Assembly: GCA_905182885.1 (NCBI GenBank)
Contig: CAJJCW010000001.1
Span: 1-64,000, forward strand
Reading direction: 5' to 3'
DNA from: SAR86 cluster bacterium SAR86B
GTDB lineage: Bacteria; Pseudomonadota; Gammaproteobacteria; Magnimaribacterales; D2472
DNA length: 64,000 nucleotides
Made by a program: the position numbers and the translations under genes. Positions 56,324 through 64,000 of this stretch are shown one piece after another. The notes under the pieces are model-generated. The model had not been told where the DNA came from. It worked only from the letters and a program-made list of their open reading frames with translations, and searched no databases. Numbering within the stretch: position 1 is the first letter of the stretch; each line of letters begins with the position of its first letter.

Positions 56324-57382
56324 CTAGAGAGCTTTATAAGTTCTCTTCACTCTTGATTTAATTCTGATCATTAGGTCATAAGAAATAAGCTTATTAAAAC
56401 TTGTTAAGTTGTTTATTGAAGATTCTGGAGAAAAGAATTCACACCAATCACCAATTTTACAATCTTTAACGTTTGTAATATCAATGGTAGTGACATCCAT
56501 GCTTACTTTCCCAAAAATTAATACATCTTCATTATTTATTTTTAGTTTTGTGCCATCTTTTAAAGAATGTGGAAGTCCGTCTGCATAACCCATATAGACA
56601 GTGGCAATCTTCATATCTGATTCTGCAACTGCCCTTCCATCATAACCAACTCTTTCACCTTTTTTTATAGTTCTTATATTTACTATAGGGGATCTGAGAG
56701 TCATTGCGGTTTGCATCTCCTCATTGCCAATATAGCCCCCAAAAATTCCTATTCCAACCCTAACCCAGTCAAATGAATATTCAGGAAAATTTATAACACA
56801 ACCAGTATTTGCGATGCTTTTGGATACATTTGAACTTAATCTTTTAGATAGGTCTTCAAAAGATTTAAACTGCTCATTATTTGAAGGACTATTCTTATCA
56901 TTTGATGCAGAAAGGTGGGACATTAGGGTAAAATTTTTATCTGATAGATGATTGTTATAAATATCCAAAAAATCGTTAATTTCAAAGCCAAGCCTGTTCA
57001 TTCCTGTATTGATTTTAAACCAGAGATTTTCATAAAAGTTATTTTCTCTGATTATGTTAAATTGATGTTGGTTATGAACAACCAAATCTAGAGAGTACTT
57101 AACTGACTCAATAAAATCATCCTGAGAGTAAACTCCCTGCATTAACAAAATCTTTTTTTTTGAAATTTTTCTTAACTCTATTGCTTCCTCAAGCCTAACA
57201 ACACCATAACCATCGACGATATCATCAATATCTTTAACTATATTTGGGAGAATATGACCATATGCATCGGACTTGATAATTGCCATGAACTTAGATGATT
57301 TGACTATCTTGGATTTAAGATAGATTATATTTTTTCTAACAATTAAGGGGTCAATTAAGAGTTCTGTCTTTAAGCTTGTCAC
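56324..57382 (-). CDS. alr: Alanine racemase (GTG start)
   Basis: PLP enzyme making D-alanine for peptidoglycan. K38 in FMAIIKSDAYGHILPNI binds PLP and the catalytic tyrosine lies in KKGERVGYDGRAVAESD. Length is 352 aa. The start is a GTG (57382) immediately after the dnaB stop, without space for a separate promoter. The dnaB-alr pairing is common in gammaproteobacteria. Confidence 0.96.
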   Translation of the reverse strand: MTSLKTELLIDPLIVRKNIIYLKSKIVKSSKFMAIIKSDAYGHILPNIVKDIDDIVDGYGVVRLEEAIELRKISKKKILLMQGVYSQDDFIESVKYSLDLVVHNQHQFNIIRENNFYENLWFKINTGMNRLGFEINDFLDIYNNHLSDKNFTLMSHLSASNDKNSPSNNEQFKSFEDLSKRLSSNVSKSIANTGCVINFPEYSFDWVRVGIGIFGGYIGNEEMQTAMTLRSPIVNIRTIKKGERVGYDGRAVAESDMKIATVYMGYADGLPHSLKDGTKLKINNEDVLIFGKVSMDVTTIDITNVKDCKIGDWCEFFSPESSINNLTSFNKLISYDLMIRIKSRVKRTYKAL

Positions 57383-58765
57383 TTAAAATTTATCTGAGTA
57401 TCCATCTGGAACATAGCCATCGTTAGCGAAATTTTCGAAACGTGTGAATTCTTTTAAGAATGTTAGATTAACTGTTCCTATTGGCCCGTTTCTTTGCTTA
57501 CCTATTATTATCTCTGCTTTATTTCCTTGGTCTGTGTCCTCGTTATAGACAGCATCTCTATAAATGAAGAGAATCACATCAGCATCCTGCTCAATTGCAC
57601 CAGAGTCTCTTAGATCGGCCATGATAGGTCTTCTATTAGGTCTCTGCTCTACAGCCCTGTTTAACTGAGATAATGCAATGACGGGAACATTAAGCTCTTT
57701 AGCTAATGATTTTAAAGACCGCGATATCTCAGAAATCTGATTAACTCTATTTTCAGCCGAGGTAGGTAGCTGCATTAGCTGAAGGTAGTCAACAACTATC
57801 ATAGACAAGCCACCCTCTTCTTGTCTGGCAAGTCTCCTGGCTTTTGCTCTAAGTTCCATTGGTGAAAGCATGGAGCTATCATCAATCCATAAAGGCAGGT
57901 CTTTTAATCTTCCAGCCTCTTGAAGCAATAATTTAAGCTCGCCATCATTTAATTGACCTGATCTAACCTTTTGCTGATCTAGCTTGCACATTCCCGAAAG
58001 CATTCTTGTAGTAAGAGATTCCCCAGGCATCTCTAAACTAAATATGAGAACAGCTCCTTTCCTTTCTCTATCGAGCAAAACATTCTCTGCCATGTTCATT
58101 GCAAAAGCTGTTTTACCCATACTAGGTCTTCCCGCAACTATAATAAGGTCTCCATCTTGGATGCCTAATAACTCTTTATCTAGGTCTTTAAAACCAGTGG
58201 AGGATCCTATTAAACCTCCTTTTTTTTCTGATAATTCATGTAACTTATCCATAGTACTTGGGATAAGGGTTTTCATTGATTTGAGAGTATCGTTATCTTG
58301 GCTGGCTTCATCATTCAAAGCAAAGATCATGCTTTCAGCTCTATCTAATAGAGCAAGACCGTCCTGCCCTTGGGGACTTTTAATAAGCTCTGAAATATCA
58401 GTATTAGTCTTTATTAACCTTCGAGTAATCGACCTTTGTCTTATTATTTCAGCATAAGCTTCGAGGTTTGCCGCTGATGGTGTGGAGGTGGCAAGTTCTA
58501 TTAAATAATTTTTTCCGCCAACCTTATTTAAAGAATTTTTATTATCTAATTTTTCAGAAACAGTAATAGGATCAAGAGGTTTATTTTCCTCTACAAGCTC
58601 CGACATAGATTCAAAGATAATTTGATGGTCTCTGCCTTCAAAATCACTGTCTTTGATTACTTGAATTACTGTATCAAACCTTTGAGTCTCAAGCATAAGA
58701 CCGCCCAAGACGGCTCTTTCAGCCTCTCTGGATTGTTCGTTTTGGTTTATTAATAAGTCAGACAT
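57383..58765 (-). CDS. dnaB: Replicative DNA helicase DnaB
   Basis: Hexameric helicase of the replication fork. The N-terminal domain has SREAERAVLGGLMLETQRFDTV. The RecA-like motor contains Walker A GRPSMGKTAFAMNMAE and Walker B SMIVVDYLQLMQ, followed by SRSLKSLAKELNVPVIALSQLNRAVEQRPNRRP in part. Length is 460 aa. No intein is present. It lies downstream of rplI in the rpsF-rpsR-rplI-dnaB-alr run. Confidence 0.97.
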   Translation of the reverse strand: MSDLLINQNEQSREAERAVLGGLMLETQRFDTVIQVIKDSDFEGRDHQIIFESMSELVEENKPLDPITVSEKLDNKNSLNKVGGKNYLIELATSTPSAANLEAYAEIIRQRSITRRLIKTNTDISELIKSPQGQDGLALLDRAESMIFALNDEASQDNDTLKSMKTLIPSTMDKLHELSEKKGGLIGSSTGFKDLDKELLGIQDGDLIIVAGRPSMGKTAFAMNMAENVLLDRERKGAVLIFSLEMPGESLTTRMLSGMCKLDQQKVRSGQLNDGELKLLLQEAGRLKDLPLWIDDSSMLSPMELRAKARRLARQEEGGLSMIVVDYLQLMQLPTSAENRVNQISEISRSLKSLAKELNVPVIALSQLNRAVEQRPNRRPIMADLRDSGAIEQDADVILFIYRDAVYNEDTDQGNKAEIIIGKQRNGPIGTVNLTFLKEFTRFENFANDGYVPDGYSDKF

Positions 58766-58803: not shown

Positions 58804-59250
58804 CTACTCTGCTAATACTTTTACAGTTACTTGAGCTGAGACTTCTGGATGAACGCTAATTACAATCACATGATCGCCAACTTCTTTAATTGGCCCATCT
58901 GGTAATTGAACTTCGCTTTTATCAATATCAACATTAATAGCAATAAATGCGTCAGCTATCTCTCTAGTTCCAACTGAACCGTATAGAGCTCCTTCTTCGG
59001 TAACTGGGACAGATATTTCGCAAATAGATCCTTCGATTGAGTCCGCTCTTCCCTGAGATCTTGTTAGCTGATCAGCTGATGCCGCAGCAAGCTCACCTTT
59101 TTTTGCTTCAACTTCTGCAACATTCTTGTCACTTGCAAAGGCTGCTTTCTTTTGAGGAATAAGGAAGTTTCTAGCATAACCAGAATTAACCTGAACTACG
59201 TCTCCAATCTCACCAAGTCTTTGTATTTTGTCTAAAAGTATAATTTTCAT
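58804..59250 (-). CDS. rplI: 50S ribosomal protein L9
   Basis: L9 binds 23S rRNA at the base of the L1 stalk through its N-terminal domain. The sequence begins KIILLDKIQRLGEIGDVVQVNSGYARNFLIPQKKA, the family signature. Central helix and C-terminal domain follow, 148 aa. It starts 4 bases after rpsR. Confidence 0.97.
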   Translation of the reverse strand: MKIILLDKIQRLGEIGDVVQVNSGYARNFLIPQKKAAFASDKNVAEVEAKKGELAAASADQLTRSQGRADSIEGSICEISVPVTEEGALYGSVGTREIADAFIAINVDIDKSEVQLPDGPIKEVGDHVIVISVHPEVSAQVTVKVLAE

Positions 59251-59254
59251 AATC

Positions 59255-59449
59255 TTATTTGTGCATATCCGTATATGGTAAAAGAGCTAAAAATCTAGCA
59301 ATTTTAATTGATTTAGTAACTTTTCTTTGATTTGAAGCTGATATACCAGTAACTCTAGCAGGAATAATCTTCCCTGTTTCAGTTATGAATTGCTTCAATA
59401 TATCTGTATCTTTGTGATCAAACTTTTTTGGTAGGTCGTACTTGCTCAT
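59255..59449 (-). CDS. rpsR: 30S ribosomal protein S18
   Basis: S18 pairs with S6 on the 30S platform. From the ATG at 59449 it is 64 aa ([34 protein letters not shown], then [14 protein letters not shown]). An in-frame start at 59476 would extend into rpsF, so the ATG one base after the rpsF stop is preferred. The basic N-terminal tail found in E. coli S18 (RRRKFCRF) is missing, shortening it by about 10 residues. Confidence 0.93.
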
Positions 59450-59450
59450 A

Positions 59451-59891
59451 TTATTCTGTTCCCTCTTTAGCATCATCAGATTTATCTTCTTTTAGTTCTT
59501 TTTTTGGAGCTTCTATTTTCACTTCTTTTTTAGAAACATCGTTTTCTGATGAAATTTCAGGCTTCTTATTTCTAGACTCTATGAGAAGACTTGAATCTTC
59601 AGCTACATGCTCTTTTACAACTAAAAATAAATGTCTAATGATTGATTCATTATATTTAATTTTTGTTTCTATCTCTAATAACTTAGAAGGGTCGCCTTCT
59701 AGATTAAATAAAATATAGTGACCTTTGTTGTGGTTTGTTATTGAATAGGCTAACTGTCTTCTACCAACATCCTCTGTTTTTATAATTTTGAATGAATTAT
59801 CTGATAATAATTTTTCAAAATCTTTTTTGAACTCGTCTACCTTAGAAGAAAGGTTAGGGTTTAGGATGATAACTGCTTCGTATTTATTCAT
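59451..59891 (-). CDS. rpsF: 30S ribosomal protein S6
   Basis: S6 binds S18 and 16S rRNA. The core ([67 protein letters not shown]) is followed by an acidic, Lys/Glu-rich tail, giving 146 aa. An AAGG ribosome binding site precedes the ATG. The 81-base leader after ftsA has small AT-rich hairpins (for example TTGGTT/AACCAA) that could be an autoregulatory site, but I cannot match the known S6:S18 motif. Confidence 0.94.
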
Positions 59892-59972
59892 TTTTTACCT
59901 TATGGTTAAAGATTTTTACCTTTATTGGTTAAAACCAAGGAAGACGCATTCTAATGTAATTGATTTTTAGAA

Positions 59973-61199
59973 TCAATACTCGCTTTTAACTATTTTTAAA
60001 AGCTTTGTAAACCAGCTTTGTCCCTGCTCTGCTATTAAGTCTTGATTTGTCTGTTTAAACCCATGATCAACAAGCCCTATTGATGTGGCATAGATTGGAT
60101 TTTGTAAAATACTTTCCATACCAGTAAATTTATTGGGGATGCCCAGTCTGACTGAGGTTTGAAAAATAGACTCAGCAAGTTCAACGACACCTTCCATTTT
60201 AGAAGTGCCTCCAGTGAATACAATGCCGGCAGAAATTTTATCTTCGAACCCATTTCTGCTTATTTCAGCCCTTACCAATTCAAACAATTCTGTATATCGA
60301 GGTTGAACAATATCTGCTAGTGAGGTTCTTGATAGCTCGCGCGGCGGCCTACCTCCAACACCAGGAACTTCAATACTTTCATCTTCTTTAGTAAACTCTG
60401 CAACTGCGCAACCATGTTTTTGTTTTATATCCTCAGCCTGAGGAGTTGGAGTTCTTAATGCTTGGGCAATATCACTTGTAACTTGATCTCCAGCTATTGG
60501 AATAACGCCTGTGAAAACAATGGATCCAGAATTAAAGATAGCTATGTCTGTAGTGCCTCCTCCTATATCAACCAAGCAAACACCCAACTCTTTCTCATCT
60601 TCAGATAAGATAGAATGTGAACTAGCTAGCTGCTCTAATACAAAACCATCAACTCCTAGACCACAATTTTTAATACATTTTTCTATATTTTTTAAAGCGC
60701 TGTTTGCACAGGTGACAAGATGAACCTTGGCCTCAAGTCTTACCCCTGACATTCCAAGAGGATCCAGACTTACCTCTTGGTTATCAATAATATATTCCTG
60801 AGGAAGAACATGGAGAACATTTTGATCTGAAGGTATAGATACAGCTTGTGCAGAATCTATGACCCTATCAATATCGTACGAGGTTACTTCTTTGTCCTTA
60901 ATGCCCACTGCACCATGTGAATTTAAACTCTTTATGTGATTGCCTGCAATTCCAACATAAACTGATTTAATCTTATCCTCGATCATAGACTGCGCTTGCT
61001 CAACCGCTTTATTAATTGCATCTGTTGTAGCATCAATATTAACAACGACTCCTTTTTTTAAACCGCTAGAAGGGTAAGAGCCCAGTGCAATGATTTCTAA
61101 TTTATTTGATTCATTGTATTTTCCTACAATACAAACGACCTTGGATGTGCCAATATCCAGTCCAACAATCATATTAGAATTTTTTGTGTTATTTGCCAT
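59973..61199 (-). CDS. ftsA: Cell division protein FtsA
   Basis: Actin-like protein that tethers FtsZ to the membrane and recruits the divisome. ATPase-fold motifs are MIVGLDIGTSKVVCIVGKY, LCLVDIGGGTTDIAIFNSG and GIVFTGGTSKMEGV. The amphipathic membrane-targeting tail is QSWFTKLLKIVKSEY. I place the start at the ATG at 61199 (MANNTKNSN); a TTG at 61211 is the alternative. It overlaps ftsQ and is followed, unusually, by rpsF and not ftsZ. Confidence 0.95.
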   Translation of the reverse strand: MANNTKNSNMIVGLDIGTSKVVCIVGKYNESNKLEIIALGSYPSSGLKKGVVVNIDATTDAINKAVEQAQSMIEDKIKSVYVGIAGNHIKSLNSHGAVGIKDKEVTSYDIDRVIDSAQAVSIPSDQNVLHVLPQEYIIDNQEVSLDPLGMSGVRLEAKVHLVTCANSALKNIEKCIKNCGLGVDGFVLEQLASSHSILSEDEKELGVCLVDIGGGTTDIAIFNSGSIVFTGVIPIAGDQVTSDIAQALRTPTPQAEDIKQKHGCAVAEFTKEDESIEVPGVGGRPPRELSRTSLADIVQPRYTELFELVRAEISRNGFEDKISAGIVFTGGTSKMEGVVELAESIFQTSVRLGIPNKFTGMESILQNPIYATSIGLVDHGFKQTNQDLIAEQGQSWFTKLLKIVKSEY

Positions 61200-61827
61200 A
61201 ATCCAATGCAACTCCGTCTTTATATCTTAGATCTATCATACTAGGTATTGATCTTCTTTCGTACAAGTAATTTAGGGTATCTTTTAGGGTTTTAAACTTA
61301 CTTTTGGAAATGTTTTTTCCAAACTTAATGTTAAATTTCTGAGTTTTGACCTGCCAACCAGATACATGATCATAATTAATGATCTCTATGATTAATGGGT
61401 AGTTTTTTTGCTGAATTTCTTTTATAGATTCGATAATAAAAAGAATTTTATCTCTATTGGTTATAGGTCCATTGACTCTAATTAAGTCTAATTGAGTTTG
61501 ATCGAACTTAAATAGATTAGAATTTTCATCAACATAATGTTTTTCATTAAGAATATAGATTGGTTTTTTATTAATTATTGAGACTGAAACTTCTTTTGTA
61601 AACGGGTGTGATTTTAGATAATAAGATTTTATCCAATCTTGGTCGAGTAAAATTTTCTCAACGTCCTTTTTAGATTTAATATTATTCAAATCTTTTGTTA
61701 GTTGTGTTTGAGAGCTTAGGTAAAAATCTGATTCATAAGTAATATCAACAATGAAGTTCTTTGCTGATAAGTTAAAGCAAAAAATTGCCAACAAGGCTGG
61801 TAAATAAATATTAGTAGGCCGACGCAT
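61189..61827 (-). CDS. ftsQ: Cell division protein FtsQ
   Basis: Divisome protein that recruits FtsB and FtsL. The 212-aa sequence has a short hydrophobic N-terminus (IYLPALLAIFCFNLSA), a POTRA region, and the FtsQ C-terminal domain (DQDWIKSYYLKSHPFTKEVSVSIINKKPIYILNEKHYVDENSNLF in part). There is almost no cytoplasmic tail, and the hydrophobic part resembles a signal peptide as much as an anchor. It is shorter than E. coli FtsQ (276 aa). It overlaps ddl by 17 bases. The call rests on position and the C-terminal domain pattern. Confidence 0.9.
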   Translation of the reverse strand: MRRPTNIYLPALLAIFCFNLSAKNFIVDITYESDFYLSSQTQLTKDLNNIKSKKDVEKILLDQDWIKSYYLKSHPFTKEVSVSIINKKPIYILNEKHYVDENSNLFKFDQTQLDLIRVNGPITNRDKILFIIESIKEIQQKNYPLIIEIINYDHVSGWQVKTQKFNIKFGKNISKSKFKTLKDTLNYLYERRSIPSMIDLRYKDGVALDYGK

Positions 61828-62740
61828 CTATAATTTTTTTGACAATGTCTTTGTATGAAAGTCCAATAAAGCTTCCTGATTTAGGGACACAGCTATGAGA
61901 TGTCATGCCAGGAACTGTATTAATTTCAATCACATAAAATACACCTTCCCTGTCTTGTAAAAGGTCGACTCTTGCACAGCCAATGCATCCCAAAGCATTA
62001 TAAGCATTTAATGAAATATCATTTATCTCATTTAATGCGGCGTCAGATAGCCTTGTCTCCACCAAATCAGTTTCATTAGAAATATATTTTGCATCATAGT
62101 CATAAAATTCATTGTCCGTAACTATCTCTATTGCCGGCAAACATTTATTGTTTATTATGGTTACTGTAAATTCCTTTCCGTCTACATACTCTTCAAATAG
62201 AAAGCCTCTTTTACGATTAGTGCATGATTCATAGGATTTCTTTAGATCTTCATCATTCGTAATTTTAAAAATATCTACGCTTGAGCCATCTTCCTCTGGC
62301 TTAAGAAATATTGTATTAAAAGGCTTAAATTTATCAAAAGATTTATCTTGCAATCCATTCTGTAAAATATCTTTACTAAACTCGCTAATCTCAAGCCATT
62401 TAGGAGTATTTATATTATTTGCTTTCAATATTTCTTTAGATTTTCTTTTATTCCACGTATTTACACACGCAGAAGATCTGGATCCAGTAAATGGAATATT
62501 TAGTTCATCTAATTTTTTTTGGAGACCGCCACCTTCACCTTCGAAGCCATGTAAGGCAATAAATATTAGATCATTATTTTTAAGTTCGGTGAGGTCTATA
62601 AGGTCATTAAAATCAATTAAGCTAGATTCATAGCCGAGTGCACGGACTGCTTCATAAATTCCGCTACCACTCTGCAAAGAGATCTCCCTTTCAGATGAGG
62701 AGCCTCCATAAATCACCGCTATATTCTTTAGATTTTCCAT
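61811..62740 (-). CDS. ddl: D-alanine--D-alanine ligase
   Basis: ATP-grasp ligase making the D-Ala-D-Ala end of peptidoglycan precursors. The 309-aa protein starts NIAVIYGGSSSEREISLQSG and includes IALHGFEGEGGGLQKKLDELNIPFTGS, KPEEDGSSVDIFKI and FYVIEINTVPGMTSHSCVPK. It lies between murC and ftsQ, as in E. coli ddlB, and overlaps murC by 13 bases. Confidence 0.96.
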   Translation of the reverse strand: MENLKNIAVIYGGSSSEREISLQSGSGIYEAVRALGYESSLIDFNDLIDLTELKNNDLIFIALHGFEGEGGGLQKKLDELNIPFTGSRSSACVNTWNKRKSKEILKANNINTPKWLEISEFSKDILQNGLQDKSFDKFKPFNTIFLKPEEDGSSVDIFKITNDEDLKKSYESCTNRKRGFLFEEYVDGKEFTVTIINNKCLPAIEIVTDNEFYDYDAKYISNETDLVETRLSDAALNEINDISLNAYNALGCIGCARVDLLQDREGVFYVIEINTVPGMTSHSCVPKSGSFIGLSYKDIVKKIIDASAY

Positions 62741-64000
62741 TTGTTTTTTATTGATTCACATACACCGGAAACACTTCCAGCTCCCTGTGTAACAAATATA
62801 TCGAAGCTGTCTGATGTAGCTTCAATAATTTTTAAGATATCATCATGATCTTTAATATGGGATATATCTTTATGTCCTAGTTGTTTTATAGTCTCAACTA
62901 TTGTTCGTGAATTTATTCCCTTAATTGGCTTCTCGCTAGCTGCATATATATCTAGGAGGATAAGTGAATCAATTTTATTTAAAACATTTATAAAATCATC
63001 AAAAAGTTGCGCTGTTCTAGTATATCTATGTGGTTGAAAAACCATGCATACTCTGCTTTTGGGATATTCCTCACGAATAGCCTTAATATTAGCTAATATC
63101 TCAATAGGGTGATGTCCATAGTCGTCTATTAAAATTTTACTATCTAGATTTATTAATAAATCATGCTTTTCATATCTTCTGCCAACTCCAGTAAAGTCTT
63201 TAATTCCTTTTTTAATATCCTTCAGAGGTAACCCCTCTTCAATACAAACAGCAACGGATGCAGCGGCATTGAACACATTATGAAGACCTGGGATTTGTAA
63301 TTGAAAAGCATGAATCTTATTTCTCTGATGATCTTTAATTTCAAAGAATTGATATCCATCTTTAAATTCTGCACCTAGGATTTGAAAGTCTGATTTATGT
63401 GACTTGCCGAACGTGATTTGTTTTCTTGATATTTTCTTAGCTATTTTCTTTATGTTCCTGTCATCTCTATTAATTACCATGTATCCAAAAAAAGGTACGT
63501 TCTCTGAAAATTTAACAAATGCATCTAAAAGGTTCTCAAAATTATTATCATAGTGAGCTAAATGATCGTCATCTATATTAGTAAGAACTGCTACATCAGG
63601 CTGAAGATGTGTAAATGATCCATCACTTTCATCAGCTTCTGCTATTAAATAACTTCCTTCACCTAAGTCTGAATTTTCATCAGTACTGAGAACCTTCCCT
63701 CCTACAACATATGTCGGACTAAGATCAGCTTGGCTAAAAACTTTAGCAATCATGCTAGTTGTTGTTGTTTTGCCATGACTTCCAGCAACAGCAATACTTT
63801 CATATCCTTTCATAATACTTCCAAGCATTTCAGCCCTAGGTATTATGGTTATTCCTTTATCTTGAGATTCAATTATCTCAGGATTTTTTTTATCAATAGC
63901 AGATGAGACAACTACAAGGTTAGCTCCTTTGATTTGATTTTTTTTATGGCCTATATAAACCTTTGCTCCATTTTTTCTTAATTTTTTTAACTCAGATGAA
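62728..64000 (-). CDS. murC: UDP-N-acetylmuramate--L-alanine ligase (partial)
   Basis: First amino acid ligase of the Mur pathway. The reading frame is open to the window edge, so the 5' end lies beyond 64000. Visible near the edge are KGANLVVVSSAI and IPRAEMLGSIMKGYESIAVAGSHGKTTTT, which contains the ATP-binding P-loop. Further on are EADESDGSFTHLQPD, DYGHHPIEILANIKAIREEYP and the C-terminal domain. It is the most upstream gene of the division cluster in the window. Confidence 0.96.
   Translation of the reverse strand, partial: SSELKKLRKNGAKVYIGHKKNQIKGANLVVVSSAIDKKNPEIIESQDKGITIIPRAEMLGSIMKGYESIAVAGSHGKTTTTSMIAKVFSQADLSPTYVVGGKVLSTDENSDLGEGSYLIAEADESDGSFTHLQPDVAVLTNIDDDHLAHYDNNFENLLDAFVKFSENVPFFGYMVINRDDRNIKKIAKKISRKQITFGKSHKSDFQILGAEFKDGYQFFEIKDHQRNKIHAFQLQIPGLHNVFNAAASVAVCIEEGLPLKDIKKGIKDFTGVGRRYEKHDLLINLDSKILIDDYGHHPIEILANIKAIREEYPKSRVCMVFQPHRYTRTAQLFDDFINVLNKIDSLILLDIYAASEKPIKGINSRTIVETIKQLGHKDISHIKDHDDILKIIEATSDSFDIFVTQGAGSVSGVCESIKNKWKI

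Follow-up and report, generated by a model that had tools for sequence, protein, structure and literature searches.

Why, in a SAR86 genome, is the division gene ftsA followed by the gene for ribosomal protein S6 and not by ftsZ? The question arises from a stretch of 64,000 nucleotides of SAR86 cluster bacterium SAR86B (the window, meaning the whole stretch that was analyzed), for which the preliminary description had claimed that ftsZ is absent after ftsA and that the 81 bases beyond ftsA hold no gene. Both statements hold: the end of ftsA is at 59973 and the start of rpsF at 59891, so that the series rpsF-rpsR-rplI-dnaB-alr begins 81 bp on. In the ORF list of the window every gene concerned is on the minus strand, as follows.

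56324..57382, minus strand: alr
57383..58765, minus strand: dnaB
58804..59250, minus strand: rplI (L9)
59255..59449, minus strand: rpsR (S18)
59451..59891, minus strand: rpsF (ribosomal protein S6)
59892..59972, minus strand: ftsA-rpsF intergenic gap, 81 bp, the proposed inversion junction and putative rpsF 5' control region
59973..61199, minus strand: ftsA (TIGR01174 match, E 5.2e-145)
61189..61827, minus strand: ftsQ
61811..62740, minus strand: ddl
62728..64000, minus strand: murC, with its start at C1:64122, beyond the window
C1:73101-75588: rsmH-ftsZ-mraZ, the upstream continuation of the division cluster, outside the window

The ATG at 61199 is the likely ftsA start, the TTG at 61211 given in the ORF list being too far upstream. 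No hidden gene, ftsZ remnant or terminator was seen when the 81-bp gap was inspected, a putative promoter and leader accounting for the gap. Our reading, which we hold with a probability of about 0.88, is that the gap is one of the two junctions of an inversion, at which rpsF retained its promoter and an S6:S18-type leader, and that ftsZ moved separately. As a side observation, rpsF and rpsR nearly touch, leaving no room within 59255-59891 of the window for priB, which in E. coli lies between them.

Conservation of the junction in SAR86

In order to judge the junction, the window's own SAR86 family (f1) was compared with three further families of the same order (f2, f3 and f4). The preliminary description had raised the prospect of an assembly chimera at 59892-59972, that is, of a binning or assembly artefact joining division and ribosomal genes, a suspicion favored by the draft state of the genome (84.67% complete, 3 contigs). 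The 70 FtsA-relative loci comprised 66 from SAR86, three from Bacteroidota and one (L075) cut off inside ftsA. By similarity search, rpsF was the next gene after ftsA in all 66 SAR86 loci, which derive from many metagenome-assembled and single-cell genomes; the gap in SAR86 loci measures 72-86 bp and its sequence is conserved. None of the 66 has ftsZ between ftsA and rpsF, an arrangement that had also been considered, and ftsZ follows ftsA in the three Bacteroidota loci. The recurrence of an identical join in so many independent assemblies led us to reject assembly error as its origin, and we accord the artefact next to no probability.

Consistent with this, ftsA and rpsF were adjacent, as judged by eye, in 35/35 f1 and 7/7 f4 genomes with both genes when 61 relatives were searched genome-wide, and the order rpsF-rpsR-rplI-dnaB-alr is identical in relatives. 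The division (dcw) cluster directly precedes rpsF in all four families, its last gene being ddl in f2 and f3. In the single-cell genome AAA168-P09 (L021 16247-21218), ftsI-ftsL-rsmH-ftsZ-mraZ-rsmI is inverted and lies beyond alr, unlike in other SAR86 loci; this odd arrangement is probably an amplification chimera.

Gene order and the proposed inversion

The genes expected behind ftsA, the whereabouts of which the preliminary description had left to the whole genome, were both located. The ftsZ gene is single-copy in the 1.05-Mb assembly and lies at C1:73996-75108, between mraZ and rsmH, ~14 kb upstream of ftsA and past the window edge; lpxC lies at C1:234370-235284 on the plus strand, ~160 kb from the division cluster, with secA next. 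The contiguous, co-directional mraZ/rsmH...ftsQ-ftsA block of a dcw cluster is present, in the order mraZ-ftsZ-rsmH-ftsL-ftsI-murE-murF-mraY-murD-ftsW-murG-murC-ddl-ftsQ-ftsA, and the canonical gammaproteobacterial form, with ftsZ right after ftsA and then lpxC, is absent at this locus. Compared with the E. coli-type cluster, the genes are identical and their order is retained from mraZ to ftsA apart from ftsZ, but ftsZ is second and not last, and the rpsF operon replaces lpxC-secA behind the cluster. In every genome with both genes, 34/34 in f1 and 7/7 in f4, ftsZ stands immediately before rsmH. Families f2 and f3 show mraZ-rsmH-ftsL-ftsQ-ftsA-ftsZ-ftsI-...-ddl followed by rpsF, with ftsZ behind ftsA inside the cluster in 15/15 (in L111, ftsL and ftsQ were assigned from their position and length; similarity identified ftsQ in some cases only). 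Thus the dcw-rpsF junction is common to the four sampled families, whereas the position of ftsZ varies.

The other side of the proposed rearrangement was found at lpxC, which is directly preceded in the source genome by two ORFs that, from their translations, we take to be rnr and rlmB. With relatives of these two identified by similarity, rnr-rlmB-lpxC-secA was present in 14/14 genomes of the order examined. Among outgroups, rlmB was immediately upstream of rpsF in 11 of 20 rpsF loci, the remaining nine consisting of one with rlmB 1.5 kb upstream (G141) and eight without it, so that the rlmB-rpsF adjacency is taken as the probable ancestral state from this majority. Similarly, of 27 canonical clusters fetched from outgroups, 14, including that of E. 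coli, have lpxC right behind ftsZ; for the remaining 13 the stretch retrieved stops soon after ftsZ or shows no lpxC. In each of the 20 genomes of the order that carry both on one contig, the dcw cluster and lpxC are divergent, at a distance of ~135-171 kb. The class sample consisted of 143 genomes, 141 of them outside the SAR86 order, and of the 124 genomes outside the order with both genes, none has rpsF in the vicinity of ftsA.

Both new adjacencies, both ancestral ones in outgroups, and segments that are inverted relative to each other were therefore all found, and a single inversion is favored because one flip of the segment between dcw and lpxC restores both canonical neighbors. Before it, the division cluster would have run into lpxC-secA and rnr-rlmB into rpsF-rpsR-rplI-dnaB-alr, the two units being divergent; the inversion would have exchanged their downstream parts, with [dcw...|rpsF-rpsR-rplI-dnaB-alr] and [rnr-rlmB|lpxC-secA] as the products. 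Such an event would be older than the divergence of the SAR86-order families sampled. The junctions, gene order, conservation, promoter conservation and hairpin covariation are read from the sequences themselves and the order of events is deduced from them; gene order is the basis for proposing the inversion, and two independent translocations would yield identical neighbors. A transposition of the rpsF unit behind ftsA, or a separate departure of lpxC, with no inversion at all, would also serve if one junction were considered by itself, where gene order cannot separate transposition from inversion. However, the entire rpsF-rpsR-rplI-dnaB-alr unit was joined, the dcw cluster and lpxC are on opposite strands in 20/20, and the reciprocal rlmB|lpxC junction, not expected under transposition, was found, with rnr-rlmB, the usual upstream partner of rpsF, joined to lpxC-secA in 14/14, so that one event covers both junctions. 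We consider transposition improbable.

The preliminary description had offered as alternatives that ftsZ had moved or that a rearrangement had joined two clusters. Both are true, ftsZ now standing at the head of the same cluster. Separately from the inversion, ftsZ would have gone from the cluster tail to its head, into the mraZ|rsmH slot in f1 and before rsmH in f4; in f2 and f3 it would have been placed between ftsL and ftsI together with ftsQ-ftsA. It is plausible, if unproven, that the departure of ftsZ from the tail predates the inversion, letting ftsA meet rpsF. A tandem duplication leading from the f2/f3 order to that of f1 was dropped as a candidate, as it cannot produce mraZ-ftsZ-rsmH.

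Control of rpsF at the junction

Three elements were assigned within or at the edge of the gap.

59971..59976, minus strand: TTGATT, putative -35 hexamer, overlapping the ftsA stop codon TGA
59948..59953, minus strand: TAGAAT, putative -10 hexamer, spacer 17
59898..59940, minus strand: predicted rpsF leader, comprising H1, H2 and a conserved CC before the Shine-Dalgarno sequence

A promoter pattern, defined as TA[TGA]AAT directly ahead of the leader plus a -35 that matches at least 4/6 positions at a distance of 16-18 nt, was present in all 64 distinct sequences obtained from 73 f1 loci, and in 62 of these the ftsA stop codon shares bases with the -35. By comparison, dinucleotide shuffles passed at a mean of 4.55/64 (maximum 10), as did 8/640 control stretches of the same length inside ftsA. 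It is from conservation that the support for the promoter comes, since the source genome by itself does not stand out (6 promoter-like sites in 1 kb versus 3.0 expected). An unanchored best-score scan was less discriminating, giving 9.45 versus 8.57 in shuffles, and picked other sites in some sequences. On this evidence the gap promoter probably drives rpsF. No terminator-like site was found between ftsA and rpsF, so read-through from the division cluster may also occur.

Downstream of the -10 the sequence runs CCUUG-hairpin-AACCAUAAGG-ATG. In helix H1, CCUU (59937-59940) pairs with AAGG (59898-59901), the latter being the Shine-Dalgarno sequence, and H2 is a hairpin, GGUUUUAACC-loop-GGUAAAAAUC, at 59911-59936. 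In an alignment of 55 of the 70 distinct sequences from the order, 92.2% of cells were paired in the two-helix structure versus 79.8% in shuffled alignments and no more than 59.5% when the partners were slid, and 87 cells were changed on both sides versus 25.2 in shuffles. The covariation lies chiefly in H2 (90.3% of cells paired, 9/9 pairs changed on both sides), the corresponding values for H1 being 95.3% and 1/5. RNAalifold returned a nearly identical structure from the same alignment. Most alignment rows have the CC ahead of the H1 3' strand, with CTC in one subgroup.

In PMC4647458, rpsF_leader is described as an S6:S18-binding mRNA structure of E. coli and B. subtilis; in E. coli S6:S18 represses translation, H1 may contain the Shine-Dalgarno sequence and conserved cytosines are required. 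The SAR86 element resembles it in lying just before rpsF, in having the Shine-Dalgarno sequence in H1 and an H2 hairpin, and in the conserved cytosines ahead of the H1 3' strand. It differs in being AU-rich and in that the CCG of E. coli is mostly CCA in SAR86. The leader of E. coli itself reads UUCCUUG...AAUCCGUAAGGAG, on which a SAR86 covariance model scored weakly (7.5 bits, E 1.5), though as the top match and in register. The model matched 35/37 f1, 7/8 f2, 3/8 f3 and 0/8 f4 genomes, counts that check the absence from f4 more than they prove presence elsewhere, given that many of the matched sequences built the model. A comparison of positions by eye put all 45 matches immediately ahead of rpsF. 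Rfam 15 matches in the region, with E up to 5, belonged to unrelated families and were taken as chance. By analogy, S6:S18 may bind the SAR86 leader. The breakpoint would lie upstream of the rpsF -10 box and leader, and rpsF would thereby have retained its promoter and S6:S18-type leader.

A different situation was apparent in the sister family f4, where rpsF overlaps ftsA by 1-4 nt (e.g. TAATG) in 5/5 clusters fetched. The overlap leaves no space for an intergenic promoter or a leader, and the leader model gave no match at the f4 ftsA-rpsF junctions. Judged from sequence, f4 would have lost both the rpsF promoter and the leader, and its division cluster and S6 operon appear to form one unit, though a promoter may lie within ftsA. 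The preliminary description had placed the rpsF operon under division-cluster transcription unless the gap has a promoter; for f1 the exception applies, the gap containing a conserved promoter together with an S6:S18-type leader, and the fused state without a promoter gap is that of f4. It might be argued that the junction was selected, linking the S6 operon to the division genes so that transcription of the division cluster governs the supply of ribosomal protein, as would suit the lack of a terminator-like site, the retention of the junction across four families, and the f4 overlap without promoter gap or leader (5/5 fetched; model 0/8). Against this, the f1 promoter is conserved in 64/64 and the leader covaries, meaning that rpsF keeps its own control in f1, and streamlined genomes may retain junctions without selection for co-expression. 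We regard such a functional origin as unlikely.

Position of ftsZ and its wider meaning

As the second gene of the cluster, ftsZ would be transcribed from the mraZ promoter and come under the control of GTGTG boxes, which precede mraZ in the majority of f1-f3 clusters at a spacing of mostly ~10 nt or a multiple of 10 (the exceptions being G022 with GTGCG and G037 with a single match). At the equivalent position E. coli has GTGGG boxes with a period of 10, which are the MraZ operators of that species. While mraZ was present in 33/37 f1 genomes, it was found in 0/8 f4 genomes, and GTGTG boxes in 0/5 f4 clusters. Further upstream is the RNase P RNA gene (L002 15666-16005; C1:75666-76005), the sole Rfam match at the gathering threshold in six clusters, which lies between rsmI and mraZ (ftsZ in f4) in 6/6 clusters scanned. 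In L119, one of the f4 loci (L119-L123), ftsZ starts a few tens of bases after this gene.

Displacement of ftsZ is not confined to SAR86. Outside the order, ftsA and ftsZ are adjacent in 123 of the 129 class genomes with both. In five of the six exceptions ftsZ is near the cluster front (L125-L130, L139) and ftsA is followed by lpxC, and in the sixth, G137, the two genes are on separate contigs. The five resemble SAR86 in having ftsZ toward the front and not behind ftsA, but differ in their slots (before mraZ in G161, after rsmH in G117 and G112, after ftsL in G201, after ftsI in G098), in having lpxC behind ftsA and in lacking the rpsF junction. The mraZ|rsmH slot of f1 is thus a fifth beside four in other gammaproteobacteria. 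On a C20 tree (41/48 taxa, 5/11 genes, SH-aLRT only) the five movers outside the order need 4 changes; an LG tree without support values places four of them beside SAR86, and the ftsZ moves may have had one origin or several. FtsZ matches were absent in 8/143 class genomes (G064, G078, G083, G099, G106, G113, G168 and G187), of which G106 and G168 have ftsA.

We tentatively speculate, as a possibility that we rate as less likely than not, that ftsZ in Gammaproteobacteria moved repeatedly from the tail to a promoter-proximal head, into at least five slots including that of SAR86, since a head position behind the mraZ promoter would solve ftsZ dosage once internal promoters had disappeared, and that in f4 the dcw cluster and S6 operon became one translationally coupled unit without MraZ control (mraZ and the operator-like boxes being gone) or S6:S18 feedback.

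The kinds of rearrangement are already known, and the SAR86 arrangement is a new variant; no published account of the SAR86 gene order was found in the accessible parts of the open-licence literature. What SAR86 adds is a fixed internal move of the cluster's central gene combined with an exchange of tails between this cluster and a ribosomal operon. PMC13349992 describes a metatranscriptomic growth index, ftsZ divided by RNase P RNA, applied to SAR86, and both genes of this index lie within ~1 kb on one strand in the source SAR86 genome. The more interesting parts are the f4 fusion and the parallel ftsZ moves, the latter in that, with ftsZ having moved in other lineages as well, whether its position matters can now be asked comparatively.
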